Below, in pieces: positions 1,341 through 17,180 of a stretch of DNA of 20,195 nt; the first letter of the stretch is position 1, and each line of letters opens with the position of its first letter. Below the pieces are notes generated by a model that was given only the letters and a program-made list of their open reading frames with translations, was not told the origin of the DNA and ran no database searches. Location of the stretch: positions 1-20,195 of IMG/VR virus record IMGVR_UViG_3300048024_000007; one strand, written 5' to 3'. Origin of the DNA: a virus. The position numbers were made by a program, and so were the translations under genes.

Positions 1341-2087
1341 ATGGGTGATACACAAACTATTGAAATGGAAGGTAGTATTACAGGTGCAGATGCCCCTAGT
1401 GATACAGAACCAAAACAGGAGCAAGAACGCCCTGAATGGTTGCCTGAGAAATTTAAAAATCCTGAAGATATGGCTAACGCCTATAGTGAATTAGAAAAAC
1501 AATTTACACAACAACGACAAAATGACAAGACTGAAGAACAAAACGAGAACACAGAGTTATCTATTGATGATGCACAGGAAGCTGTAGAAAATGTAGGCTT
1601 AGATTTTGCTGCTATGACAGAGGATTATGTTACTAATGGTCAATTATCGGAAGACAATTATAAACTATTAGATGAAAAAGGTATTCCTAAAGAAGTAGTA
1701 GACGCTTATATTGAAGGGCAAAAAGCTGTGTCTGAAAATATGAAACAAAATGTATTTAGTTCTGTAGGTGGTGAAGAAAATTATAAACAAATAACAGATT
1801 GGGCATCTAATAATATGTCTGAATCTGAAAAAACAGCTTACAACAATTCAGTTAATTCAGGTGATTTAGAACAAGCTAAATTAGCTATAGATGCTTTAGC
1901 TGCACGTTATAAATTACAAACTGGTACTACCCCTAATCTAGTAGGTGGTAAAGCATCAGAAAGCATGGACACATATACATCATGGGCTGAAGTGACAAGT
2001 GACATGAAAGACCCTAAATATGCTAAAGACCCTGCTTACCGAGCAAAAGTTGAAGGAAAACTTGGGCGAAGTAAATCAATCACTTAG
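1341..2087 (+). CDS. Capsid assembly scaffolding protein (T7 gp9-like)
   Basis: A 248-residue acidic, Gln/Glu-rich protein without cysteines. In the T7 family the scaffold guides capsid subunits into the prohead shell and leaves on maturation. The recognisable part is the N-terminal motif around residues 33-54 (WLPEKFKNPEDMANAYSELE), which is shared by T7-like scaffolds, followed by a long charged, helix-forming region. The C-terminal end is basic (KLGRSKSIT), as expected for a scaffold tail that contacts the capsid protein. It lies between the portal and capsid genes, as in T7. The start codon at 1341 follows the previous stop by two bases; the only purine-rich stretch upstream (AGGGGG at 1324-1329) is rather far away, so translation may be coupled to the upstream small gene. 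Confidence 0.9.
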   Translation: MGDTQTIEMEGSITGADAPSDTEPKQEQERPEWLPEKFKNPEDMANAYSELEKQFTQQRQNDKTEEQNENTELSIDDAQEAVENVGLDFAAMTEDYVTNGQLSEDNYKLLDEKGIPKEVVDAYIEGQKAVSENMKQNVFSSVGGEENYKQITDWASNNMSESEKTAYNNSVNSGDLEQAKLAIDALAARYKLQTGTTPNLVGGKASESMDTYTSWAEVTSDMKDPKYAKDPAYRAKVEGKLGRSKSIT

Positions 2088-2088
2088 T

Positions 2089-2104
2089 CATACTATCTAG
2101 TATG
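2089..2104 (+). other. Short near-perfect inverted repeat after the scaffold gene
   Basis: CATACTA at 2089-2095 is the exact reverse complement of TAGTATG at 2098-2104, separated by two bases. It begins one base after the scaffold stop. No T-run follows, so it does not look like an intrinsic terminator. It could be an RNA processing or 3'-end-protecting hairpin, or a protein-binding site. The function is unknown. Confidence 0.45.
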
Positions 2105-2132
2105 CTAAATAGTTCAGACAAGACAGACCAAA

Positions 2133-2155
2133 ACTAGACCCTTATATAAGGACAC
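2133..2155 (+). promoter_or_regulatory. Candidate phage RNA polymerase promoter for the capsid gene
   Basis: The segment includes ACCCTTATATAAGGACA (2138-2154). Aligned to the T3 promoter consensus with the start site at G2150, it matches ACCCT, the A two bases later, and the AA-GG around the start: 10 of 14 positions from -12 to +2. It contains a perfect 12-base palindrome, CCTTATATAAGG (2140-2151). It sits in the only large intergenic gap and would give an 84-base leader, similar in layout to T7 phi10 before gene 10. A second copy was not found in the window, so the assignment rests on resemblance and position only. Confidence 0.45.
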
Positions 2156-2207
2156 TCTTGCAAAATGAGGTTGGCGAGTTAAGAACGAAAACTAAACTTA
2201 AACTTAA

Positions 2208-2224
2208 CTAACTTTAAAAAGGAG
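2208..2224 (+). promoter_or_regulatory. T7 gene 10-like translational enhancer and Shine-Dalgarno
   Basis: Bases 2209-2224, TAACTTTAAAAAGGAG, match the T7 gene 10 leader (TAACTTTAAGAAGGAG) at 15 of 16 positions. The match covers most of the published 'epsilon' enhancer element TTAACTTTA (CTAACTTTA here) and the Shine-Dalgarno AAGGAG, with a 9-base spacer to the capsid ATG at 2234. This fits the need for very high capsid expression. Enhancer activity is inferred from the T7 element. Confidence 0.65.
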
Positions 2225-2233
2225 TCATTTATT

Positions 2234-3187
2234 ATGGCTAACGCAAACCCATCTGATTTAGGTCAGATAAATAATACAGGAACAGCAGATGTTTTGTTCC
2301 TAAAACAATTTAGTGGGGAAGTCCTCGCTAGTTTTGAGCAGTCTACTGTAGCTATGGATAAGCATATGGTACGTACTATTGCTTCAGGTAAGTCAGCACA
2401 ATTCCCTGTCATGGGACGAAGTTCTGCTGCCTATCATACCCCAGGAGCAGAGATTAATGGTACTGATATTAATCATGCTGAAAAAGTAATTACTATTAAC
2501 GACTTGCTACTTAGTTCGCATTTCATTGCAAATATTCAGGAAGCTAAAAATCACTATGATGTAAGGTCAGTTTACTCTGCCGAAATGGGACGTGCACTCG
2601 CTTTCCAAATGGATAAGCATATCCTTCAAACTATGGTTCAAGCTGCAGCAGCTTCTGCAAACGTAGGCGATACAGGCTACGCTGCAGGTACAGTTATTAC
2701 TTCTGCAAACGCAGGTACAGTATCTGCTGACTTGATTGCTGCTATCTATGATGCTGCTGAAGCACTAGATGATGCTTATGTTCCTGCTGATGGACGTTTC
2801 TGTTACCTTAAACCTGCACAGTATTACTTACTTGCTAACGCATCTAATGCTGTAAATGTAGATTTTAGTGGTAGAGGTTCTATTGCTGATGGTACAGTTC
2901 CACAGATTGCAGGTGTAAACCTAATCAAAACACCACATCTACCAACTGCTAACGTAACAGGCACAGGGGTTGATGCAGGTGGAGCAGGGGGAGCACAAGT
3001 TGCTGCTGCTGCAAATACTCTAGCGATTGTGTCTCACACTTCTGCTGTGGGTACAGTAAAACTAATGGATTTAGCTGTTGAAAGCGAATACGATATTCGT
3101 AGGCAAGGTACATTGATGGTTGCAAAATATGCAGCAGGTCATGGCGTACTAAGACCCGAAGCAGCAGTACAAATTCAATCTGCATAA
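2234..3187 (+). CDS. Major capsid protein (T7 gp10-like)
   Basis: A 317-residue shell protein of the T7 gp10 family (T7 10A is 344 residues, HK97-type fold). The family signature is clear at the C-terminus: SAVGTVKLMDLAVE from about residue 271 and KYAAGHGVLRPEAA from about 298. The N-terminal region contains ASGKSAQFPVMGRSSAAYHT, also typical. A Gly/Ala-rich stretch at about residues 245-260 corresponds to a flexible loop that is also present in T7. The start at 2234 has a strong Shine-Dalgarno in a T7-like leader, and the gene is followed within 10 bases by an intrinsic terminator. Unlike T7, I see no obvious extended frame downstream for a frameshifted minor form, because the terminator follows at once. 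This is likely the most highly expressed gene here. Confidence 0.96.
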   Translation: MANANPSDLGQINNTGTADVLFLKQFSGEVLASFEQSTVAMDKHMVRTIASGKSAQFPVMGRSSAAYHTPGAEINGTDINHAEKVITINDLLLSSHFIANIQEAKNHYDVRSVYSAEMGRALAFQMDKHILQTMVQAAAASANVGDTGYAAGTVITSANAGTVSADLIAAIYDAAEALDDAYVPADGRFCYLKPAQYYLLANASNAVNVDFSGRGSIADGTVPQIAGVNLIKTPHLPTANVTGTGVDAGGAGGAQVAAAANTLAIVSHTSAVGTVKLMDLAVESEYDIRRQGTLMVAKYAAGHGVLRPEAAVQIQSA

Positions 3188-3196
3188 TATCAACAT

Positions 3197-3231
3197 AGCG
3201 AGAGTCCTTAATTGGGCTTTCGCTTTTTTTT
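3197..3231 (+). terminator. Intrinsic terminator after the capsid gene
   Basis: AGCGAGAGTCC (3197-3207) pairs with GGGCTTTCGCT (3214-3224) as an 11-bp stem including two G.U pairs, with a 6-base loop TTAATT. An unbroken T-run follows to 3231. It lies 10 bases after the capsid stop, the position of Tphi in T7. As in T7 it is likely leaky, because the tail genes downstream still need expression. Confidence 0.88.
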
Positions 3232-3244
3232 ACAGGAAAACAAA

Positions 3245-3853
3245 ATGGCAAATCCAAATCCGACTACAGAAATAGAAGCTGTCAATATTATGTTAGCTTC
3301 CATTGGGGAAGCACCTGTATCTAGTATTAGTAATACTGCACTTGTTGATGTATCTATTGCAAAATCAATCTTGGATGAAACAAATGTTTCAGTTCAATCC
3401 ACAGGAATATACTCTAACACAGAATTTAATTACCCAATAGAAGCAACTGTAGATGGTGAATTACTAATACCTGCTAACTGTGTAAGAATAGACACAGTAG
3501 GTAATAGTGCAACTGTTGATGTTGTTCAGCGTGGTTCACGCCTTTATGACAGAGAAAAGTTTTCATTTACTAAATTTGTTGGTACGTATTATGTAGAAAT
3601 GGTTTTACTTTTACCTTTTAATGAGTTACCTCAACACGCAAAAAGATACATTGTAGTAAAAGCTGCAAGGCGTTTTCAAGCCCGTTATATGGGTTCAGAA
3701 GCGTTAGGTGGTTTTACAAAAGATGATGAGCAGGAAGCTATGAGTTACTTTACGCAATGTGAAGCTGCACTTGAGGATAACAATATTTATCACGACTCAT
3801 ATGATATGTATAAAATAGTACACAGAGGTGCTCCTAGACGAGCAATAAGGTGA
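3245..3853 (+). CDS. Tail tubular protein A (gatekeeper, T7 gp11-like)
   Basis: A 202-residue protein (T7 gp11 is 196) forming the ring under the portal that links the connector to the tail nozzle. The N-terminus MANPNPTTEIEAVNIMLASI followed by GEAPV is characteristic of the family. The C-terminal region (PFNELPQHAKRYIVVKAARR, then FQARYMG) also fits. I chose the ATG at 3245, with AGGA at 3234-3237. A longer frame from a TTG at 3212 would start inside the terminator stem and has no support. The gene is followed after four bases by tail tubular protein B, and its stop overlaps the Shine-Dalgarno of that gene. Confidence 0.94.
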   Translation: MANPNPTTEIEAVNIMLASIGEAPVSSISNTALVDVSIAKSILDETNVSVQSTGIYSNTEFNYPIEATVDGELLIPANCVRIDTVGNSATVDVVQRGSRLYDREKFSFTKFVGTYYVEMVLLLPFNELPQHAKRYIVVKAARRFQARYMGSEALGGFTKDDEQEAMSYFTQCEAALEDNNIYHDSYDMYKIVHRGAPRRAIR

Positions 3854-6974: not shown

Positions 6975-8840
6975 ATGGCAGAAAGAGCACAAATTAAAGA
7001 TGTAATAGGTACAGGGAGTGTATCAACTCCTATGGCAACACCTATTGATGCTTTTATGGGAGCACCACAAGTTGCTCCAAATTCAGGGTTAACACAATTA
7101 GCACAGGCTCTTAGTAAAGGTGCTGACAGATTAATTGCATCAGGGCAGAAAGACGCAAAGAAAAAGAAGAAGGAAAAAGATTTAAAGGATAAAGCAAGAC
7201 TAAGTTCTATTGCTGCTGAAATTAGGAAAGAACAGAAAACTGGTGTTATTAGTAAAGTAAGAATTGGAGAATTGCACCCTGATTTATCTGTTACAAACCA
7301 AGTATTACTAACACAAATGTTAGCATCTAATGATACATCAAAAACTTGGAATACAGTATTTGAAGACTTTAATAAAAACCCATATGACGCAAGTGGTGAA
7401 AATCAAATTAATAATAAAGTTAAATTAGATAGTTGGGTTGAGGGGCAAAGAAACGACATTAGAAAACTTTATGAATACCAAGATAAAGACACAGGGGAAA
7501 TGAAGGTACATGACTTTGCATATGCAGGGGCATTAAATAAATTTAACCAAATGTTAGCTTCTCACGAAAGTAATTGGTCAAGTCAAAGACGAGAAAACAA
7601 CACAAAAATTACTACTGATTATTTAGAACAGGAAGTTGACGGGAATGTTAGAAAAACTTTGAACACCCCTGATTCTAAGGGTAACTATAATTTTACACAA
7701 ATGTATGAAGATATAGAAAACTCTCAATTTAAAGATGATAAAGGTCAACCACTTATGGTATTAGACCCTGATGTAATTGATGACACAGTTTTTACATCAA
7801 TCGTAGCGTCAGCAGAATTTATGACTACAGTAGATAAGAATGGATTCGTACAAGGGATTGCATTATTAGATTCTATACCAAAGCGTTTAAGAGAAAAAGG
7901 TGGGAATGAAAATATTATTCTAGCTATGAAAGCAAAGATGAATGATAAAGCAAGTAATAATATGCTTAAAAAAATGAGAATGGACGAACACCTTAAAACA
8001 GTAGGATTAAAAAATGCTAAAGCAGAACTTTACACAATGTTTGATGGTACTTTTAATGGAACAGCAGAGAAAAATAAATCTCTAAAGTATAGTAAAGATA
8101 ATTGGCAAAAAGCAGCAGATGCTTATATTAATAACGCACCTATATTACAAAGAGCAGAATTAAAAACATTTTTAATGACAATTAATGATTACGACCAAAC
8201 AACAGTAAACCCTGCAGACAGTCTAAAAAATAAACTATTACTTGCAAATAAAATTATGACTTTTTCTACAACTGATAATTTGGAAGAAGTATTATTTAGA
8301 AGTGATTCAGATAAAAAATCTTATAAAGATGGCACAACAAATGAAAAAATGTCTATGCTTATGACAAAAGTAGAAGACATGATAGAGAATGACGAGTTAA
8401 GTCTTAAAGATGGTATGGATGTTTTTAAAAACCTAGAAACATATATGGAAGGTAGTGATGTTTTAGCCGACCCTCTAATTGATTCTACGTTTAATGAAAC
8501 TGTGGGGCAAACAATCCAAGCAAATATGAAAGCAGTTACAGGTACTTTAGACCAAATAAAAGGTACAAAATTCTACTCTCAATTAAAACAGGTATATCTT
8601 AAAGTTGTTAGAACATCAGTTATGAACTCAATAAACGATAAAGGTGTTGTACCTCAACAAGAAGCCTTTTTAGATATACTTGATAAATCTGTTCTATTGT
8701 CTTTATCAAGGATGGGATTAACAAATACTGATGGTATGTTAAGTTCTGAAAAACTAGACAATGTAATGAAGAATGAATTAGGTCTAGCAGTAAAACCATT
8801 ATCTGATAAAAATAAACCTGTTGAATTAACTGGTGAATAA
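6975..8840 (+). CDS. Internal virion (ejection) protein, T7 gp15 position
   Basis: A 621-residue, highly charged, mostly helical protein in the position of T7 gp15 (747 residues), which forms part of the internal core and the trans-periplasmic channel. The N-terminal 55 residues (with PIDAFMGAPQVAPNSGLTQL) precede a Lys-rich tract near residues 60-72 (KDAKKKKKEKDLKDKARL). Such 'LTQLAQALS' N-termini are common in marine T7-like phages. No enzyme motif, signal peptide or clear membrane span is visible. AAGGA at 6964-6968 fits the start. The function is assigned by order and general composition rather than by a diagnostic motif. It is one of the most AT-rich genes here by eye. Confidence 0.8.
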   Translation: MAERAQIKDVIGTGSVSTPMATPIDAFMGAPQVAPNSGLTQLAQALSKGADRLIASGQKDAKKKKKEKDLKDKARLSSIAAEIRKEQKTGVISKVRIGELHPDLSVTNQVLLTQMLASNDTSKTWNTVFEDFNKNPYDASGENQINNKVKLDSWVEGQRNDIRKLYEYQDKDTGEMKVHDFAYAGALNKFNQMLASHESNWSSQRRENNTKITTDYLEQEVDGNVRKTLNTPDSKGNYNFTQMYEDIENSQFKDDKGQPLMVLDPDVIDDTVFTSIVASAEFMTTVDKNGFVQGIALLDSIPKRLREKGGNENIILAMKAKMNDKASNNMLKKMRMDEHLKTVGLKNAKAELYTMFDGTFNGTAEKNKSLKYSKDNWQKAADAYINNAPILQRAELKTFLMTINDYDQTTVNPADSLKNKLLLANKIMTFSTTDNLEEVLFRSDSDKKSYKDGTTNEKMSMLMTKVEDMIENDELSLKDGMDVFKNLETYMEGSDVLADPLIDSTFNETVGQTIQANMKAVTGTLDQIKGTKFYSQLKQVYLKVVRTSVMNSINDKGVVPQQEAFLDILDKSVLLSLSRMGLTNTDGMLSSEKLDNVMKNELGLAVKPLSDKNKPVELTGE

Positions 8841-8859: not shown

Positions 8860-11800
8860 ATGGCAGAAAAAGAAATTTTTACTTATGGTGGGGTTGATTA
8901 TTCATTTCAAACAGGTCTTACAAAAGAAAGAAAAATAGAAAAGATAAAACAACATTTAGAAAAAACTAAGAAAAAACCTGAAGTAACAAAAAGTGTAACA
9001 CCACCTGTTACATCTTCAGAAGATATGCCACCTGCTGAAAAAGCTACTGCAGGTAGCCCCAAAGTAACTTCACCTACTACCACTAAACCAGTAGTAAAAG
9101 AAGAAGAATCAGATTTAGACAAAGCATTACGTCTACAAGAAGAAAAATCTAAAGTTGCAAAAGCTGAGTTAAAAAAGAAACAAAGCGAATTTCCTAACGG
9201 GGATGCAAGAATTTTTACTGAACGATATAAAGATAACGACCCCGACAATCCAGTTTATGATGCTGATTTAATTAAAGATGATAACTGGATTGCTGCTGCT
9301 AAAGTCATGTTTAAAATGAAAGAAGGTAGAGAGTGGGGGAGTGATGAAGATGATGGTGAAGACGCTAACGTAGCACGTTATGCCCTTAACGAAATGGGGT
9401 GGTTTAATTATAACCTTCCACGTATGGGTTATGATGCTGCTAGGATTGCATCATGGGCAACTGAAGATGAAAAGAGAGCCTTTCTTTATTTAATGGAGCA
9501 GTATGGGGATTTAGGTAATGCAACTTTAGCAGGTACAGGAAGACTTGTTAAAGGTATGGTTACTGACCCTGCTAATATATTTGGTATCTTTACTTTAGGG
9601 GGTTCATTTCTTGTAGGGCAATCAACTAAACTAGCTACAAGAGCAGGGTTACTGGAACTATTAAAGCGTTCTATAACAACTGCGACTGTTGGTGGTGTTA
9701 ATGGATTTGTCTATGGTGGTCTTGATGCTACAGGCAGAGAGATAGTACATAGTCAAGGTACTGACTCTGCATTTAGAGGTAGTAAAGTTTGGCAAGGTTC
9801 ATATAAAGGTGCAGGAGCAGGTGCTATCTTAATGGGGGGTGGTAAAGCAACTATTGGATTAGGTAAATCATTATTTAATAGAAGTGCAGGTGAGATAGGA
9901 GAAAAAGTCTTACCAAAAATTGATTCTAATATGATTGGTAAGCAAGACTTAATAAGCACAAAAGAAGGTATTAAAGAAGGTGTCAACGTAAGGGTTAATG
10001 ATGGAAAAACTAAAACACCAAAAAAGGGTAAAGTTCTTGGTGATGTAAAAGCAGATGGCACAGTTGATGTTTCTATTCCCTATGGTAAACAAGGTAAAAC
10101 AAAAATTGTAAATGTAGAAGCTGAAAATCTTTCTGTTATTACTACAAAGAAAGTACCTGATACTAATGAAATTAAAGTTGAAAACAAAGTTGTAAACTCA
10201 GACCCAAAATCAACAAAAGAAAAATTAGCCCAAACATTAGATACAACCCCAGGAGAAATGAGAACAGGGCTACAACATTTAGTTGCAAAAATTAATGAAG
10301 TATTACCTAGAAGTAAAAGTGGGAAATGGGAAGTGTCTGCTACAAGAGGTGGTGATGACGCTAACATTGTACAAAGAAATTTAGGTAAATTTGGGGGTGG
10401 TCAAACTCAGTCAATGTCAATTCTAAGGGAAATGACAGAGAAAATTTTACAACCACTTAAATCAGCAGGGGCATTACACCCTACACAAATACGTGCATAT
10501 TTATATAAAGCAGGATTAGACGCAAAACAAGAGCAACTATTAAAGGATACAGTTAATACACTATTAAACGAATATAAAACTAGGTATGACACACTTGTTA
10601 ATGAACTTAGAACTAACCCTAATTTAACTATTAAAGAAATTCAAGAAATGTCTAAACTCTCTGATGAGTTAGACGAATTGATGATGCCTTTAAATGATAT
10701 TTCTACAGGTATTGCTAGTCAAGCAGGTAGAACTCTACAGTCAAACGCTGCTGCAAAAGCTGCAGGTAGTAAAGTTATAGGTAATCAGGGGCTAGGAGAT
10801 AAGACAGGTGGTCTAACTATACAACAAGTTATGAGGGAAACTGGATTTGATGTTGGAGCAGCTACAAAAGAATTTTGGAAACTCAATGAAGCTATAGAAA
10901 AAGCTATCGAAAGAGATGCCAACATTATTAAACTAAGAAAAGCATATGATGATTTAAAATCAAATGGCGAATTTAATGAAGCAGCTAAAGCACGTAGATT
11001 GCATGACGCTGAAGTAGCCCGTAAAAAGGGAGAACTTTCTGATAGTTTCTTTGGTAAAGTTGGTGGTAGTATAAATTATGCTATAAGAATACTAAATGAA
11101 ATTGCCATTAGTAATGTGTTTTCTCCTACTACATTAATGATTAACACAATCCCTTCTGCAGCTAAAATGTTTTATAGACCTATTCTTAATAACATTGGTG
11201 CTGATGGTTTGTCATGGAAAGCATGGAAAGTTGGTATGGGAGAAATGTCTGCTGTTAAACAACTTTTGTTTTCAGGTAGAAAAGCAGCTTTTCAAGCCTT
11301 TAAATATGAAAGGTCTATGCTAACTGGTGATTCAGCTAGGTTCTTAGAAACTCAAACTATGATACCAAAGAAATATGGTGGTGGAATTATTAGAATATTT
11401 CCTAGATTACTATTAGCTACAGACGCAATGTTTGAGCAAGTTTTCTACAGAAGCTACATTGTAGGGGATGCTACAGCAACAGCTATAGAACTTGGTGTTA
11501 AAAATGGTCTAAGTAAAAAACAAATTAACATTGAGATTGATAAAGCAGTTAAAAAAGCTATTAAGGATGGTTACGAACCAATCCCTAATGCTGTCGATAT
11601 TATTACAGACAACGCAAGGGATACAAACTTTATTGGTAGAAGATTTAGAAATGTAGATGAATACGTTGAGTCTGAACTTAAAAAGTTTGGGGATGGCAAA
11701 GGAAAAATTGTTGACCCCAACGCAACTGAAAATTTAACAGCAACTAATAAAAAGGGTAGAGATTATACTCAAGACGCTTTATTCAAAAAAGATTTTGATA

Positions 11801-13347
11801 AATACAACAGCACAACAGGAGCAATACTTGCAGGATATGAAAACCTAGTTAATAAAGCACCTGTGTTACGTTTAATGGGACAGTTATTCTTTAGAACTCC
11901 TGTAAGGGTTTTTGAAGAAGGTCTAAGACTAACCCCAGGATTACAGTTACTTCATCCTAATATGAGAAAGAACTTGCTTCCTGAAACAGCTACTTCAAGG
12001 GCAGCACACGCTAGAGCAATGGGAGAAGTAATGCTTTCCCAATCGTTACTAGGGTCTGCTTTCGGTTTGTATATGTCAGGTAACATAACTGGTGCTACTG
12101 GTAGAGATTATAAACAATCAAGAGCAGGAGAAGATGCAGGTTTCTTACCACCTTATAGTATAAGAAATCCTATAACTGGTGAGATATTTAATTATAGAAC
12201 CTTTGACCCTTTCTCTACTCCATTAAAAATTATTGTAAGTATAGCCGAAGAACAATCAATGCTAGATTATCGTAAAGCACAAGGAGAATATGTAGGTAAA
12301 GAAGAACAAATATTAAAAGAACGACTTCATATAAGTTACATGGTTATGTATCGAATTATACATGACACAAATTTATTTGCAGGTGTATCGGATATATTAA
12401 CTCTTGGTGAAGATTTAATGAATGATGATGCAGGTTCTGAATGGTTAAAGTTTTGGGGAAACAAAGCAAAGAACGCTGTCCCAAATACTTACTTTAAATC
12501 AATGATGCAACAACACCCTCTACTAGCTTCTCCTGAAGATTTTGGACAAGTTATGAGGTACAGACTTAATCCTACTAATAAACAAGATGGTAGTGAATGG
12601 TATGAATTAGATAATGCAAAAATTGATGCAGCCCTTGAATTTCTTGGTTTGGAAAAATGGGGAGCAGTACAACATCAACATTCAGCTTTAGGAGATGTTA
12701 GAGAAAACCCTAATCCTGGGGGTCTGTTAAATCTTTTTGATTTGTTAGAACCTGAAGAATTAAAAGATAGGTTTCCTGTAAAAGTTTATAGGGGTAATGA
12801 TGAAAATGGTAAACCAGTATTCTCTGAAGATTATGACCAAACTGTAAAAAAAGATGTTGTAGCGAAATTTTTATGGAAACTTGGTAAAGCTAATGATGTG
12901 AATTTTATTGCACCAGTTAAATACGATAAGTTATTTCCTGATGTACCTAATACTAAATTAAAATATACGACTGAAAATAGTAGGTTTCCTAGAGAAACTT
13001 TATATAACAGGATGCAAAGGTATATGAAGATGGCACAAGGTGTTCCTTTGGGTGGGGATGGAGCAACATTAATAGATATGTTGCATGAAATTGCTACTGA
13101 CCCTGAATACACAATAGGTAGACCTTCAGCAAAAGGAAAATTTGCAGGTACAGCATTACAGGCAACTCGTAAAGTATTATCAAGCTATAGAGATTTAGCT
13201 TGGGCACAAATATTTGAAGAAGAAAAATGGGCAGAATCAGCATTGATGGATAAGAAAACAAAAGATGCTAACGCTACTCTAGGACAAAATGACCCACAAG
13301 GTAACACAAGAGGAAATGCTTTTAACTTACCTATGGGGATACAGTAA
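8860..13347 (+). CDS. Large internal virion (ejection) protein, T7 gp16 position
   Basis: At 1495 residues this is the largest gene, somewhat longer than T7 gp16 (1318). The N-terminal segment (FTYGGVDYSFQTGLTKERKI, residues 7-26) is a small domain often found at the start of such phage proteins. A Pro/Thr-rich linker follows (about 40-75). Hydrophobic, Gly/Ala-rich stretches at about 220-335 and 1055-1085 could insert in membranes. Residues about 374-428 look like a small beta-barrel insert. The middle (about 780-960) is helical. In T7, gp16 carries an N-terminal lytic transglycosylase domain and forms the inner-membrane part of the ejection channel; I see no transglycosylase motif here. Its role in DNA ejection is inferred from size, order and composition. 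Confidence 0.82.
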   Translation: MAEKEIFTYGGVDYSFQTGLTKERKIEKIKQHLEKTKKKPEVTKSVTPPVTSSEDMPPAEKATAGSPKVTSPTTTKPVVKEEESDLDKALRLQEEKSKVAKAELKKKQSEFPNGDARIFTERYKDNDPDNPVYDADLIKDDNWIAAAKVMFKMKEGREWGSDEDDGEDANVARYALNEMGWFNYNLPRMGYDAARIASWATEDEKRAFLYLMEQYGDLGNATLAGTGRLVKGMVTDPANIFGIFTLGGSFLVGQSTKLATRAGLLELLKRSITTATVGGVNGFVYGGLDATGREIVHSQGTDSAFRGSKVWQGSYKGAGAGAILMGGGKATIGLGKSLFNRSAGEIGEKVLPKIDSNMIGKQDLISTKEGIKEGVNVRVNDGKTKTPKKGKVLGDVKADGTVDVSIPYGKQGKTKIVNVEAENLSVITTKKVPDTNEIKVENKVVNSDPKSTKEKLAQTLDTTPGEMRTGLQHLVAKINEVLPRSKSGKWEVSATRGGDDANIVQRNLGKFGGGQTQSMSILREMTEKILQPLKSAGALHPTQIRAYLYKAGLDAKQEQLLKDTVNTLLNEYKTRYDTLVNELRTNPNLTIKEIQEMSKLSDELDELMMPLNDISTGIASQAGRTLQSNAAAKAAGSKVIGNQGLGDKTGGLTIQQVMRETGFDVGAATKEFWKLNEAIEKAIERDANIIKLRKAYDDLKSNGEFNEAAKARRLHDAEVARKKGELSDSFFGKVGGSINYAIRILNEIAISNVFSPTTLMINTIPSAAKMFYRPILNNIGADGLSWKAWKVGMGEMSAVKQLLFSGRKAAFQAFKYERSMLTGDSARFLETQTMIPKKYGGGIIRIFPRLLLATDAMFEQVFYRSYIVGDATATAIELGVKNGLSKKQINIEIDKAVKKAIKDGYEPIPNAVDIITDNARDTNFIGRRFRNVDEYVESELKKFGDGKGKIVDPNATENLTATNKKGRDYTQDALFKKDFDKYNSTTGAILAGYENLVNKAPVLRLMGQLFFRTPVRVFEEGLRLTPGLQLLHPNMRKNLLPETATSRAAHARAMGEVMLSQSLLGSAFGLYMSGNITGATGRDYKQSRAGEDAGFLPPYSIRNPITGEIFNYRTFDPFSTPLKIIVSIAEEQSMLDYRKAQGEYVGKEEQILKERLHISYMVMYRIIHDTNLFAGVSDILTLGEDLMNDDAGSEWLKFWGNKAKNAVPNTYFKSMMQQHPLLASPEDFGQVMRYRLNPTNKQDGSEWYELDNAKIDAALEFLGLEKWGAVQHQHSALGDVRENPNPGGLLNLFDLLEPEELKDRFPVKVYRGNDENGKPVFSEDYDQTVKKDVVAKFLWKLGKANDVNFIAPVKYDKLFPDVPNTKLKYTTENSRFPRETLYNRMQRYMKMAQGVPLGGDGATLIDMLHEIATDPEYTIGRPSAKGKFAGTALQATRKVLSSYRDLAWAQIFEEEKWAESALMDKKTKDANATLGQNDPQGNTRGNAFNLPMGIQ

Positions 13348-13368: not shown

Positions 13369-14553
13369 ATGGCATACGCACTAACTAAATACACAGGAAA
13401 CGGGAATACTGTGACCTACACTATTGGGTTTGACTATCGTCAAGCTGCTGATGTTAAGGTAAAAATTAATGGTGTTGACAAAGTAGCAGATACAACATCT
13501 CAAACAAATGATTATTCGTTTCCCTCGTCTAATCAAATAACTTTTACAACAGCACCTGCTGACCAATCAGCTATTACTATTAGGCGTTCTACAAGTCAAG
13601 ACGCAAGACTTGTTGATTATGTTGCAGGGGCAGTTTTAAAAGAAGCTGACTTAGACGCTGACTCTACTCAAGCGTTCTTTATGGCACAGGAATCTATTGA
13701 TTACGCTCAAGACTCTATTGCTGCTTCAGATGTAACGGGAGCATTTGATGCAGGAAACAAAAAGGTTGGAAATGTTGCAGACCCAACACTAGCACAAGAT
13801 GCTGTAACAAAGAATTATCTCGAAAATACTTGGTTAAGTTCAGCAGATAAAACGAGTATTAATACGTTAGCTGCAAATAATAGTGCAATAACTACTCTTA
13901 ATACTAATATGAGTGCTATTACTTCAGTAAATTCAAATGAAACAAATATTAATACACTTGTATCTAATATAGGTTCAGTTAGTGATTTTGCTAATAGGTA
14001 TCGTATTGCAACAACAGACCCATCAGCGTCATTAGACGAAGGTGATTTAGTATATAACAGCACAGACAACCAACTTAAATTTTATAATGGAACAAGTTGG
14101 AACGCTGTAGCGACAGGTGCTGACGTTAAGGCAGGGGTGTCTGCGAATGATACATCCCCAGGATTTCTTAATGGCAAACTTGTTGCAGGTTCAAACATTA
14201 CGTTTGTAGAAAACAATGATGGTGGAAATGAGACACTAACTATAAATGGTACTGCTGCTCTATTTAGTGCAGAAAGGTTGGCAACAACTTCAGAAGCACA
14301 GGCAGGAACAGATAACACTACAGGTATGACACCTTTACGTGTTAAAGAAGCTATAACTCATAATGCAGGTACAGTAAATAATGCTGCATTTTATGGTTTT
14401 AAACAGACTAATGGGGTACTGCAGGTTGATGGAACAACAGGTGGTGGTTCAGAAGCATACACACTTTCTGACTATAAAGATTCAGAATTTGCATCTTTGG
14501 GATTGACGTTTGCTATTAATAGTAATGGTCATCTATTAGTAACAACACCCTAG
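13369..14553 (+). CDS. Tail fibre protein with T7-type tail attachment domain
   Basis: A 394-residue protein. The first 110 or so residues (YALTKYTGNGNTVTYTIGFD, then ITFTTAPADQSAITIRRST and the LDADSTQAFFMAQESIDYA region) match the N-terminal domain of T7 gp17, which binds the tail at the portal/nozzle junction. A conserved segment with KKVGNVADPTLAQDAVTKNY follows, then an Asn/Thr/Ser-rich heptad-like region (about 155-205) suited to a trimeric shaft. Next comes a small domain with LVYNSTDNQLKFYNGTSWNA (about 227-246), and a motif near 304-329 (LATTSEAQAGTDNTTGMTPL) that recurs in many phage fibres. It is shorter than T7 gp17 (553) and lacks a recognisable C-terminal tip, so it probably acts as an adaptor for the next gene product. 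Confidence 0.9.
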   Translation: MAYALTKYTGNGNTVTYTIGFDYRQAADVKVKINGVDKVADTTSQTNDYSFPSSNQITFTTAPADQSAITIRRSTSQDARLVDYVAGAVLKEADLDADSTQAFFMAQESIDYAQDSIAASDVTGAFDAGNKKVGNVADPTLAQDAVTKNYLENTWLSSADKTSINTLAANNSAITTLNTNMSAITSVNSNETNINTLVSNIGSVSDFANRYRIATTDPSASLDEGDLVYNSTDNQLKFYNGTSWNAVATGADVKAGVSANDTSPGFLNGKLVAGSNITFVENNDGGNETLTINGTAALFSAERLATTSEAQAGTDNTTGMTPLRVKEAITHNAGTVNNAAFYGFKQTNGVLQVDGTTGGGSEAYTLSDYKDSEFASLGLTFAINSNGHLLVTTP

Positions 14554-14589: not shown

Positions 14590-16593
14590 ATGGCAACGAT
14601 TGATGTCGGTAAAATAAAATTTGTGTGGAAAGGTGCTTACGCTGCAGGTACTGCCTACACAGTTGATGACGTAGTGTCTTACTTAGGAAGTTCTTGGGTA
14701 AACATACAAGCAGGTACAGGACAAACACCTGCAAATGGCAGTTCATATTGGGAACTAATGGCAGAGGGACAAGCAACTCTGACTACTAATGGTGACTTAC
14801 TAACTGTTACTGGTGGTAGTCAAGCACGATTACCTATTGGTAGTACAGGGCAGGTTCTGAAAGCAACCTCATCTACAGCAGTAGGATGGGAAGCATCTTC
14901 AGGAGATGCCACTCATAAACCACTAGGTAGTAATATACCTCGTTATGCTCATACAACTGAAACTACAACGTATGGTACAGGGGGTAAATATCCTTGGTTA
15001 GCAGATTATGCTAATAACTATATACCTTATGATGGTTTACCTAATGGTTCTTTATCGCCTGTTAAGCGTGATAGAAACGAAGGTTACGTTTCAGGTGGAT
15101 TTTTCATGATGTATCTAAACGAAAACCATGAAATATGTCACAGGGGTTATTCTTACAATGGTATAGGTAGTGTAGTTAATACTCATACTGGGAATATGGA
15201 AACCACTATGCCACTATCAATGGAATTTGGTGGTATGCAATCAGGTGAATACTTTGTTCGTATATGGTACTCCCAATATTCAGCATGGGCACTAACTAAT
15301 AAAGGTGACTTGTGGTGCTTTGGTGAGAATGATGATGGTGAACTAGGACTTGGTGATACAACTGCTAGATACCAATGGGTAAGAAACCCATATCTAGGTG
15401 TTAATGCCACCAACAATAGTGTTACTTGTCGTGTAACAGGATTTACATTCAGTTACAAAATGGGTTACGAAGGACAAGGAACTAACACTTGTCACGTAAT
15501 TCTTGAAGATGGGCGAGTAATGTCATGGGGACACAATGGTACAGGACAAATAGGGGATGGCACAACAGCTAATAAAAGTGTACCTACTATAATTTCTGCA
15601 TTATCAGGTGTAGATATATGTCAAATCTCTGCAGGTTATCGCACAACTTTATACTTAGACACAACAGGTCAGGTGTGGGGTACAGGTGCAAACGATAATG
15701 GAGTTATGCAAGGTGCTAATAGAACAGCCCCATTCCAAATGGGAGTTACTGGTGTTGTTCAAATTCTTAACTATTCGGGTTACGGGTATTCAGCAGACTA
15801 TGGTTCAAATATGTTTGCATTACAAGCTGATGGTGACTTATATGGTATTGGATATAATAACTATGGTGCATTAGGTATTGGTTCAACGAGTGCTGTATCA
15901 GCATGGACACAAGCAGGTGGTTCTCTGAACTTTGCTGCAGTTATATGTGCAGGAGAACCTGAATATACAACTATGTTAGCGTTTCAAGGAACTCCTGGAG
16001 ATTTGTATGACACAACAAACGGGCTACCAATCTATATGTGTGGTTGGGGAGGTGATGGACAAATAATGCAAGGTAACACTACTTCTTCAAACTCATCTCT
16101 TGTACAACCACAGACAGACGTATATGGTTCAAATCGTTCTGTAGTTATGAGTTCATCTGCTGATGGAACACTTTCTTCTAACGAAATGTCATTTCCAAGA
16201 AATAATATTGTAGCTGCATGGGGTGTTCGTGAAGGTTCTTATTCAACATCTACATGGTTTTTCTTGGACAACCAAGGAAGACTATGGACAAGTGGATATC
16301 ATGAAGTAGATTATAACTACCAAGCAAATACTTCAGCAGTTAGTTATACCAATGCACAACCTGACCATAATAATTGGATGCACACTTTGTCTTCAGGGAC
16401 AACGTATGCAGGTAAGGTAGCTGAAACTATTGAAGATTTATATTGTCAAGGACACTTCTATAGTGCTTATTGGAATCACTTCATTAGAACATCTACCAAT
16501 GAATATTGGACAAGGGGTAATAACATCCACTACTTGTATGGTGGTAATACTACGCAAACCAAATATAAATGGTCACGTTGGAATCTTAACTAG
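14590..16593 (+). CDS. RCC1-like beta-propeller tail fibre / receptor-binding protein
   Basis: A 667-residue protein. Residues 16-57 (AYAAGTAYTVDDVVSYLGSS, then W...YWELM) resemble a small carbohydrate-binding-type module. Residues 81-101 (LPIGSTGQVLKATSSTAVGW) are a motif common in marine phage fibres. From about 171 onward there are seven or eight RCC1-like repeats, each with a hydrophobic strand, a D/N-G turn and a W-G-x-G/N-x-x-G-Q/E-L/I-G pattern. Clear ones start near 233 (LTNKGDLWCFGENDDGELGL), 301 (ILEDGRVMSWGHNGTGQIGD), 353 (LDTTGQVWGTGANDNGVMQG) and 409 (LQADGDLYGIGYNNYGALGI); weaker ones lie near 171, 481, 556 and 631. RCC1 repeats fold as a seven-bladed propeller. Placement after the tail fibre suggests a receptor-binding role, which is inferred. 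AAAAAGGA upstream supports the start. Confidence 0.85.
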   Translation: MATIDVGKIKFVWKGAYAAGTAYTVDDVVSYLGSSWVNIQAGTGQTPANGSSYWELMAEGQATLTTNGDLLTVTGGSQARLPIGSTGQVLKATSSTAVGWEASSGDATHKPLGSNIPRYAHTTETTTYGTGGKYPWLADYANNYIPYDGLPNGSLSPVKRDRNEGYVSGGFFMMYLNENHEICHRGYSYNGIGSVVNTHTGNMETTMPLSMEFGGMQSGEYFVRIWYSQYSAWALTNKGDLWCFGENDDGELGLGDTTARYQWVRNPYLGVNATNNSVTCRVTGFTFSYKMGYEGQGTNTCHVILEDGRVMSWGHNGTGQIGDGTTANKSVPTIISALSGVDICQISAGYRTTLYLDTTGQVWGTGANDNGVMQGANRTAPFQMGVTGVVQILNYSGYGYSADYGSNMFALQADGDLYGIGYNNYGALGIGSTSAVSAWTQAGGSLNFAAVICAGEPEYTTMLAFQGTPGDLYDTTNGLPIYMCGWGGDGQIMQGNTTSSNSSLVQPQTDVYGSNRSVVMSSSADGTLSSNEMSFPRNNIVAAWGVREGSYSTSTWFFLDNQGRLWTSGYHEVDYNYQANTSAVSYTNAQPDHNNWMHTLSSGTTYAGKVAETIEDLYCQGHFYSAYWNHFIRTSTNEYWTRGNNIHYLYGGNTTQTKYKWSRWNLN

Positions 16594-16604
16594 AAGGAAA
16601 AAAA

Positions 16605-16973
16605 ATGAAACTATATAAATACATTAAAGAACCTAAAGCTATTGTGCATCCTAAAGAATGGGATTCCACAGCAACAGGTAAAATTAAATGGTTAGGTGAT
16701 GGATACGTGGCTATGGATGATGGTTGGAAAGACCTAATGGTAAGCCTAAACAAAGACACGTTTACATTGTGTGATGCTGATGATGTTATCGCTGCTAAAG
16801 CACTTAATAAATCCATGTGGGATAATAAGAAAAAGATGCGTATTCGTGAAAAATATTCGCAAGATGACGAATTTAAAGCCTTACGAACTGGTGATAAAAC
16901 AGTACAAGATGGTATTGCTAAAATTATCAGCGATACTAATACAGAGAGGGATGCGTTTTACGCAATCTCTTAG
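16605..16973 (+). CDS. Hypothetical protein after the receptor-binding gene
   Basis: A 122-residue soluble protein whose ATG follows the RCC1-like gene by 11 bases, with AAGGA directly upstream. The N-terminal half looks beta-rich (YIKEPKAIVHPKEW, KIKWLGDGYVAMDDGWKDLM). The C-terminal half is helical and charged (WDNKKKMRIREKYSQDDEF, near residues 71-89), ending with KIISDTNTERDAFYAIS. There is no membrane segment or signal peptide, and one cysteine. I do not recognise a family. Many phages keep a fibre assembly chaperone or fibre-tip partner directly after the receptor-binding gene, so that is the first hypothesis, but the sequence gives no direct proof. Confidence 0.75.
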   Translation: MKLYKYIKEPKAIVHPKEWDSTATGKIKWLGDGYVAMDDGWKDLMVSLNKDTFTLCDADDVIAAKALNKSMWDNKKKMRIREKYSQDDEFKALRTGDKTVQDGIAKIISDTNTERDAFYAIS

Positions 16974-16976
16974 TAA

Positions 16977-17180
16977 ATGAAGATGGCACAATCACTTGAA
17001 CCTGAACTAAAAGTTCAGATGGAACTTGAAGCACATGAAAAAGAGTGTGCTGTTAGGTATCAAATGGTGAATGATAAGTTGTCTGCTTTAGATAAAAGAT
17101 TATGGAGATTGGAAGCTATGATTATGGTTTCCACTCTTTCTTTTATTGTATTAGCTGCAACCCTACTCACTAAAATTTAA
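16977..17180 (+). CDS. Small coiled-coil membrane protein (XhlA-like holin candidate)
   Basis: A 67-residue protein with a charged helix (about 8-46, including MELEAHEKECAVRYQMVNDK and LDKRLWRLEAMI) followed by one C-terminal membrane helix (about 47-65). This is the layout of the haemolysin XhlA / small phage holin-associated family, whose members sit in the inner membrane and help lysis. The HEKECAxRY pattern followed by a basic helix is a form I associate with marine phage proteins of this type. Two starts are possible, ATG 16977 or ATG 16983. It begins three bases after the previous stop. The lysis role is inferred from topology and from the nearby holin. Confidence 0.72.
   Translation: MKMAQSLEPELKVQMELEAHEKECAVRYQMVNDKLSALDKRLWRLEAMIMVSTLSFIVLAATLLTKI

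Follow-up and report, generated by a model that had tools for sequence, protein, structure and literature searches.

RCC1-type β-propellers have already been encountered in phage tail proteins. In Pseudomonas phage PollyC, an autographivirus, gp12 (867 aa; L081:12467-15070) combines in one chain an RCC1 domain and a T7-type fibre N-terminus, which scores just under the Pfam cut-off and strongly against tail-fibre PHROGs, and gp88 of Littlefix (Schitoviridae; 1365 aa) has a fold similar to that of PollyC gp12 and of the RCC1 type described here. These two proteins (PHROGs 4219 and 20500) resemble the protein under study, which is encoded in a 20,195-base IMG/VR contig (hereafter the window), in that an RCC1-type propeller lies C-terminally in a phage tail protein, and PollyC is also T7-like. 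In both of them fibre and propeller make up a single protein, whereas the propeller of the window belongs to a protein of its own that has a foot, and the sequence identity to PollyC is only 26% over 366 columns. Propeller adhesins and the RCC1-fibre fusion of PollyC are thus precedents for it. The Littlefixvirus paper (PMC12309495) makes no mention of an RCC1 domain, and literature searches on RCC1 in phage tails turned up mainly a DNA-condensation reading, or nothing. PHROG 4219 bears the name 'regulator of chromosome condensation' and is placed in the DNA/RNA metabolism category; it matches PollyC gp12 end to end. As the N-terminus of PollyC gp12 is of the tail-fibre kind, this family is, judging from sequence, probably misnamed in at least some of its members.

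The RCC1 proteins of myophages (W70_237-239, GAP32_001 and those of phAPEC6 and Hallingskeid) share RCC1 repeats with the window protein, and the predicted fold of the GAP32 protein is similar; theirs, however, are stand-alone proteins of ~375-400 aa, often in tandem and labelled as DNA condensation. Some of them are found in virions: mass spectrometry detected RCC1 proteins in W70 virions, three PHROG 4219 proteins included (PMC11370258), and GAP32_001 is likewise associated with the virion (PMC5259590). The part that these W70 and GAP32 proteins play in the virion could be something other than host recognition. No window-type foot was present in the one Hallingskeid copy that was scanned. 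Erwinia phage Hallingskeid carries five consecutive 'regulator of chromosome condensation' genes (22150-28881 of its genome, L077), which resembles the multi-copy RCC1 genes of phAPEC6 and 121Q.

Among other β-propellers, receptor binding is known for the five-bladed phi11 Gp45 and proposed for PRD1 P2 (five blades) and PhiKZ gp131C (seven) (PMC4901313). The likeness of these proteins to that of the window lies in the use, or proposed use, of a propeller in host attachment, whereas their foot and overall build differ. None of the three is known to contain an RCC1-type repeat. Eukaryotic RCC1, UVR8, HERC2 and RPGR share the repeat and the fold, but the window protein stands in a phage context and possibly has one extra blade, and nucleotide-exchange, light-sensing or ligase roles would be unexpected for it; bacterial hosts are not known to have Ran.

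The window comprises late genes of a T7-like phage, which specify a head-tail adaptor, scaffold, major capsid protein (MCP), tail proteins, internal virion proteins and a tail fibre, as well as the RCC1 protein, small proteins and the terminase subunits. Its MCP is 60-63% and its large terminase subunit (TerL) 71% identical to those of SAR11 phage HTVC031P, and considering these similarities the host is probably SAR11. Closeness of MCP and TerL to pelagiphages, taken together with a T7-type fibre base (PF03906), places the carrier among Pelagivirus-like Autographiviridae. Two large open reading frames (ORFs), 8860-13347 (1495 aa) and 6975-8840 (621 aa), occupy the positions of internal virion proteins; neither had a PHROG match, and the larger one had no Pfam match. 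Two other IMG/VR contigs (L004 and L005) encode an RCC1-head protein identical to that of the window, which suggests the same or a near-identical phage assembled from other samples. Three phage contigs (L073, L074 and L075), two of them close sisters of the window phage, were binned with bacterial genomes of Flavobacteriales, Lentimicrobiaceae and Rhodobiaceae. A cellular origin through these bins was set aside because the Lentimicrobiaceae contig, at least, was phage-like across the part read, and for this reason the bins are uninformative on the host.

The RCC1 gene begins 36 nt past the stop of the tail-fibre gene, directly after it as the initial annotation had placed it, and its start is preceded by AAAAAGGAAATAAAA-ATG. 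Promoter-like sites around the gene showed no excess over shuffled sequence. Full-length relatives of the protein are present in IMG/VR and in the binned contigs. The Pfam RCC1 profile (PF00415, cut-off 21.7 bits) matched the 667-aa protein in three stretches with 72.3 bits (E 4.8e-20) and the RCC1_2 profile with 1.3e-12, so that the profile search proposed with the initial annotation bore out its RCC1-type repeats far above chance. Chance or low-complexity repeats were ruled out by this E value together with the close structural matches described below. The score against WD40_RLD (PF25390; E 4e-42, 145.2 bits) fell just under the cut-off of 150, and we therefore file the protein, on profile scores, with the RCC1 repeat family PF00415 and outside the WD40_RLD model. 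The coordinates of the features are collected in Table 1.

Table 1. Features of the RCC1 locus and its surroundings, with positions in the window.
Feature	Position	Strand	Basis or remark
Tail fibre gene, 394 aa	13369..14553	+	PF03906 3.4e-30 at residues 3-154 = T7-type N-terminal attachment domain
Fibre C-terminal part, ~100 aa (about residues 291-394)	~14239-14550	+	common to other RCC1-tip phages; proposed dock
Whole RCC1 gene, putative adhesin	14590..16593	+	intact ORF, 667 aa, ribosome-binding site
N-terminal foot, residues 1-~106	14590..14907	+	CBM5/12-like module (about 13-61), then fibre-type GDLL-RLPIG-GQVLK repeat
Predicted RCC1-type β-propeller head, residues ~109-667, ordered neck 109-165 included	14914..16590	+	Pfam RCC1, AF2, PDB matches
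Partner gene, 122 aa	16605..16973	+	candidate cognate assembly chaperone for head
Divergence (recombination) island: foot end, propeller head, partner gene	14700..17000	.	identity drop vs sister L083

An AlphaFold2 (AF2) monomer model of the whole protein, built from 17 aligned relatives, reached a pLDDT of 77 and a pTM of 0.78. When this model was searched against the PDB with Foldseek, the top matches were the RCC1-like domains of UVR8 (E about 1e-21), RPGR, HERC1/2, RCC1 and RCC2, and a second structural comparison (VIA) gave Z scores up to 25, with 4.0-4.6 Å over ~320-340 residues spanning model residues ~109-667. BLIP-II was also among the structural matches of the head. Residues ~109-667 are thus predicted to fold as an RCC1-type β-propeller, in line with the initial annotation, which had suggested structure prediction of the monomer as a check. 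Its domain start at 15097 (residue 170) was too late, since the domain, as modelled and structurally matched, extends from about residue 109 (~14914). It had also described the propeller as seven-bladed; the RCC1-like propeller stood up in the model, whereas the count of seven is uncertain, as the model's strand list allows eight B-C hairpins of the RCC1 type to be read. In a profile comparison among the units, units 2, 3, 4, 5, 6 and 8 were clearly related and unit 7 moderately so, while unit 1 had no significant support. The model is therefore compatible with seven blades plus a degenerate unit or, possibly, with eight blades. The rmsd of 4.0-4.6 Å to the best-matching seven-bladed structures is high, and an eight-bladed ring would explain it.

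The foot repeat reads LTTNGDLL..RLPIGSTGQVLK, and the foot matches tail-fibre PHROGs 9851 and 5073. A separate AF2 model of the foot (pLDDT 89) matches CBM5/12 modules, and its best structural match is 8kec, the tail fibre of cyanophage A-1(L) (1.3 Å over 49 residues, Z 8.2). Although the fold matches, Pfam CBM_5_12 gave the window foot 21 bits, under the cut-off of 26.2, which two slot relatives exceed (31.4 and 26.6), and for that reason we call the foot no more than CBM5/12-like. The phage fibre-style N-terminus of the initial annotation is thus recognisable as a CBM5/12-like module followed by a fibre-type repeat, and the chitin-binding-type fold predicted for the module could itself bind glycan.

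In 27 aligned phage loci the foot is 42-91% identical, and the heads behind it are unrelated in most. When loci were retrieved by the foot alone, 7 of 41 had RCC1 heads, and the remainder fell by sequence into at least 11 further head types. The isolated SAR11 phages have a foot-bearing gene directly behind the fibre gene, same as in the window, and HTVC031P gp39 and HTVC024P gp43 have their first ~90-109 residues in common with the window foot (49-56% identity). These slot proteins share with that of the window the gene position, the foot and the SAR11-phage context, whereas their heads (~160-190 aa) are unrelated to RCC1 and another small gene follows. Considering that MCP and TerL of the window are near those of HTVC031P while the heads are unrelated, the phage backbone is common and the head differs. 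In AP013543, the slot gene is named 'carbohydrate binding domain', and proteins of this name are among the host-recognition genes enriched in pelagiphage islands (PMC3909814). A conserved tail-fibre-type foot and unrelated heads in one slot correspond to the arrangement of an attachment module and an exchangeable distal domain by which phage receptor-binding proteins are recognised, and the foot would be the part that attaches.

A head-based search retrieved further RCC1-head phages, and the foot was found in all of those in which the gene start was present, in four of them via GTG or TTG starts. RCC1 heads ~45% identical to that of the window occur in podoviruses with another type of fibre N-terminus. 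In the further RCC1-head phages examined, TerL similarity to the window was not detectable and MCP was either undetected or matched at 26-28% over part of its length; missing matches may come from contig fragments, yet several of these contigs exceed 29 kb. One of these phages has a neighbouring protein similar to phages AF and BPP-1. Despite a different fibre N-terminus, four podoviruses have the last ~100 fibre residues 60-70% identical to those of the window, and a related cap sequence stands at the fibre end in most slot loci. As the C-terminus is conserved while the N-termini differ, the window fibre seems to consist of a base of the T7 type and a C-terminal portion that moves together with the RCC1 head.

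A gene of ~100-140 aa lies directly behind every RCC1-head gene checked. Relatives of the 122-aa partner protein were detectable only after RCC1 heads, and the small genes behind other heads are different ones. Pfam gave no family above cut-off for the partner protein and its relatives, and PHROGs gave none for the window's protein. Phage fibres can have assembly chaperones of their own, such as Pam3 gp25 (PMC9608196), and by analogy the position and co-occurrence of the partner gene suggest that it may encode the assembly chaperone of the head.

Over most of its length the window is 95-99% identical in nucleotides to a sister genome, L083, and most other genes are 95-100% identical. In 200-base steps, the identity falls to 74-87% at ~14,700-~17,000, save for 92-93% near 15,200-15,500. 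It rises again on either flank, and the borders of the island are sharp. At the amino acid level, the head is 82% and the partner gene 70% identical. Synonymous divergence is raised as well (~4-6 fold), with a dS of ~0.46 for the head and 0.08-0.11 for the fibre, so that an imported diverged allele is likelier than fast point mutation alone, which is disfavoured as an explanation of the island.

Blade-loop variation between related phages had been put forward as a check of the initial annotation, and the changes in the head concentrate on one face. With loop faces assigned from one AF2 monomer model (17 sequences, pLDDT 77), the changes against the sister amounted to 44/147 on the A-B/C-D face and 12/144 on the B-C/D-A face (Fisher 3e-6; loop-level permutation p 0.003). 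Against a second relative, they amounted to 38/147 and 15/144, respectively (p 0.0008; loop-level permutation 0.018), and as L073 and L074 are 94% identical across the head, the two face comparisons are not independent tests. Family-wide entropy was also higher on the A-B/C-D face (loop permutation, p 0.016). On the model, one exposed surface, A-B/C-D, is therefore unusually variable relative to B-C/D-A, which could merely mean that the other face packs on a partner.

We consider it highly probable that ORF 14590-16593 encodes the distal host-recognition protein, or adhesin, of a T7-like phage most likely infecting SAR11. The foot with its exchangeable heads, the co-transfer of the fibre C-terminus, the divergence island, the variability of one face and the precedent of the PollyC fusion argue for this reading. 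We infer the virion location, docking partner, oligomeric state and receptor of the protein, as well as its host. In the mechanism that we propose, the ~105-residue foot would attach the protein to the virion, probably by docking on the cap that ends the neighbouring short tail fibre at its C-terminus, as adjacency and co-transfer suggest. The predicted propeller would then present its A-B/C-D loop face to a receptor on the host envelope. In the sequence comparisons, propeller, fibre C-terminus and small downstream gene behave as a cassette that recombines among marine podoviruses and alternates in one slot with unrelated, mostly smaller heads. The initial annotation had proposed host recognition through a distinct RCC1 architecture: the adhesin role is supported by slot, cassette, island and face, but the distinctness was overstated, since phi11 Gp45, PRD1 P2 and PhiKZ gp131C have propellers, and PollyC and Littlefix RCC1-type ones.

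A protein with this foot might instead decorate the virion or serve as an accessory at its surface, with weak binding to glycans or particles and no decisive influence on host range. The CBM5/12 fold of the foot, which is of the chitin-binding type, is consistent with such a role, as is the finding that the distal carbohydrate-binding module of the A-1(L) neck fibre did not bind the host (PMC10966104). The gene, however, adjoins the fibre gene and co-transfers with the fibre C-terminus, and together with its neighbour it carries the sharpest divergence in the window, and we regard mere decoration as unlikely. The usual interpretation of 'regulator of chromosome condensation' labels would make the protein an organiser of DNA or chromosomes, which has the RCC1 fold and the filing of PHROG 4219 in its favour and is a published guess for the RCC1 proteins of phAPEC6 (PMC7247149) and W70 (PMC11370258). 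A direct role in DNA condensation was nevertheless set aside as less likely given the fibre-type foot, the fixed slot behind the fibre gene and the exchange with unrelated heads, and PHROG 4219 itself includes PollyC gp12 with its tail-fibre N-terminus; we deem a DNA organiser very improbable, and a DNA-condensing function would be unnecessary to explain the protein. RCC1-type propellers can also bind proteins tightly, as in the case of BLIP-II, so an internal or injected protein that binds a host protein inside the cell was considered as well. Against this stand the fibre-type foot, the slot and the fact that heads differ wholly while the foot is kept, which leave it hardly any likelihood.

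If the window protein is an adhesin, the implication is that tail adhesins of phages have, in at least some cases, been mislabelled as 'regulator of chromosome condensation' (PHROG 4219). This concerns many phage genes with chromosome- or DNA-condensation labels: at least the ones whose N-terminus is of the fibre type resemble tail adhesins, and their presence in virions would then have to be read differently. We tentatively propose, as an idea that falls somewhat short of even chances, that RCC1 propellers constitute a general, horizontally exchanged class of phage receptor-binding heads, in which an eight-unit ring on a common foot docks on a conserved fibre cap and each head has its own small chaperone, and to which 'chromosome condensation' genes of phages largely belong. 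SAR11 phages are among the most abundant marine viruses, and little seems to be known about how they recognise their hosts; here the RCC1 gene marks a defined slot, a foot and a set of alternative heads, which are directly testable.

More distant RCC1 proteins were also noted. Two contigs, L009 and L010, encode 722-aa slot proteins in which the same foot carries a more distant RCC1 head. No relative of the window fibre was detected on either contig, and in L009 the gene before the slot protein weakly matches a baseplate wedge-fibre connector PHROG. In Synechococcus phage BUCT-ZZ01 (L076), a 700-aa protein with 13 RCC1 stretches, annotated as 'BNR repeat domain protein', is encoded at 1522-3624 near a tail-fibre gene.
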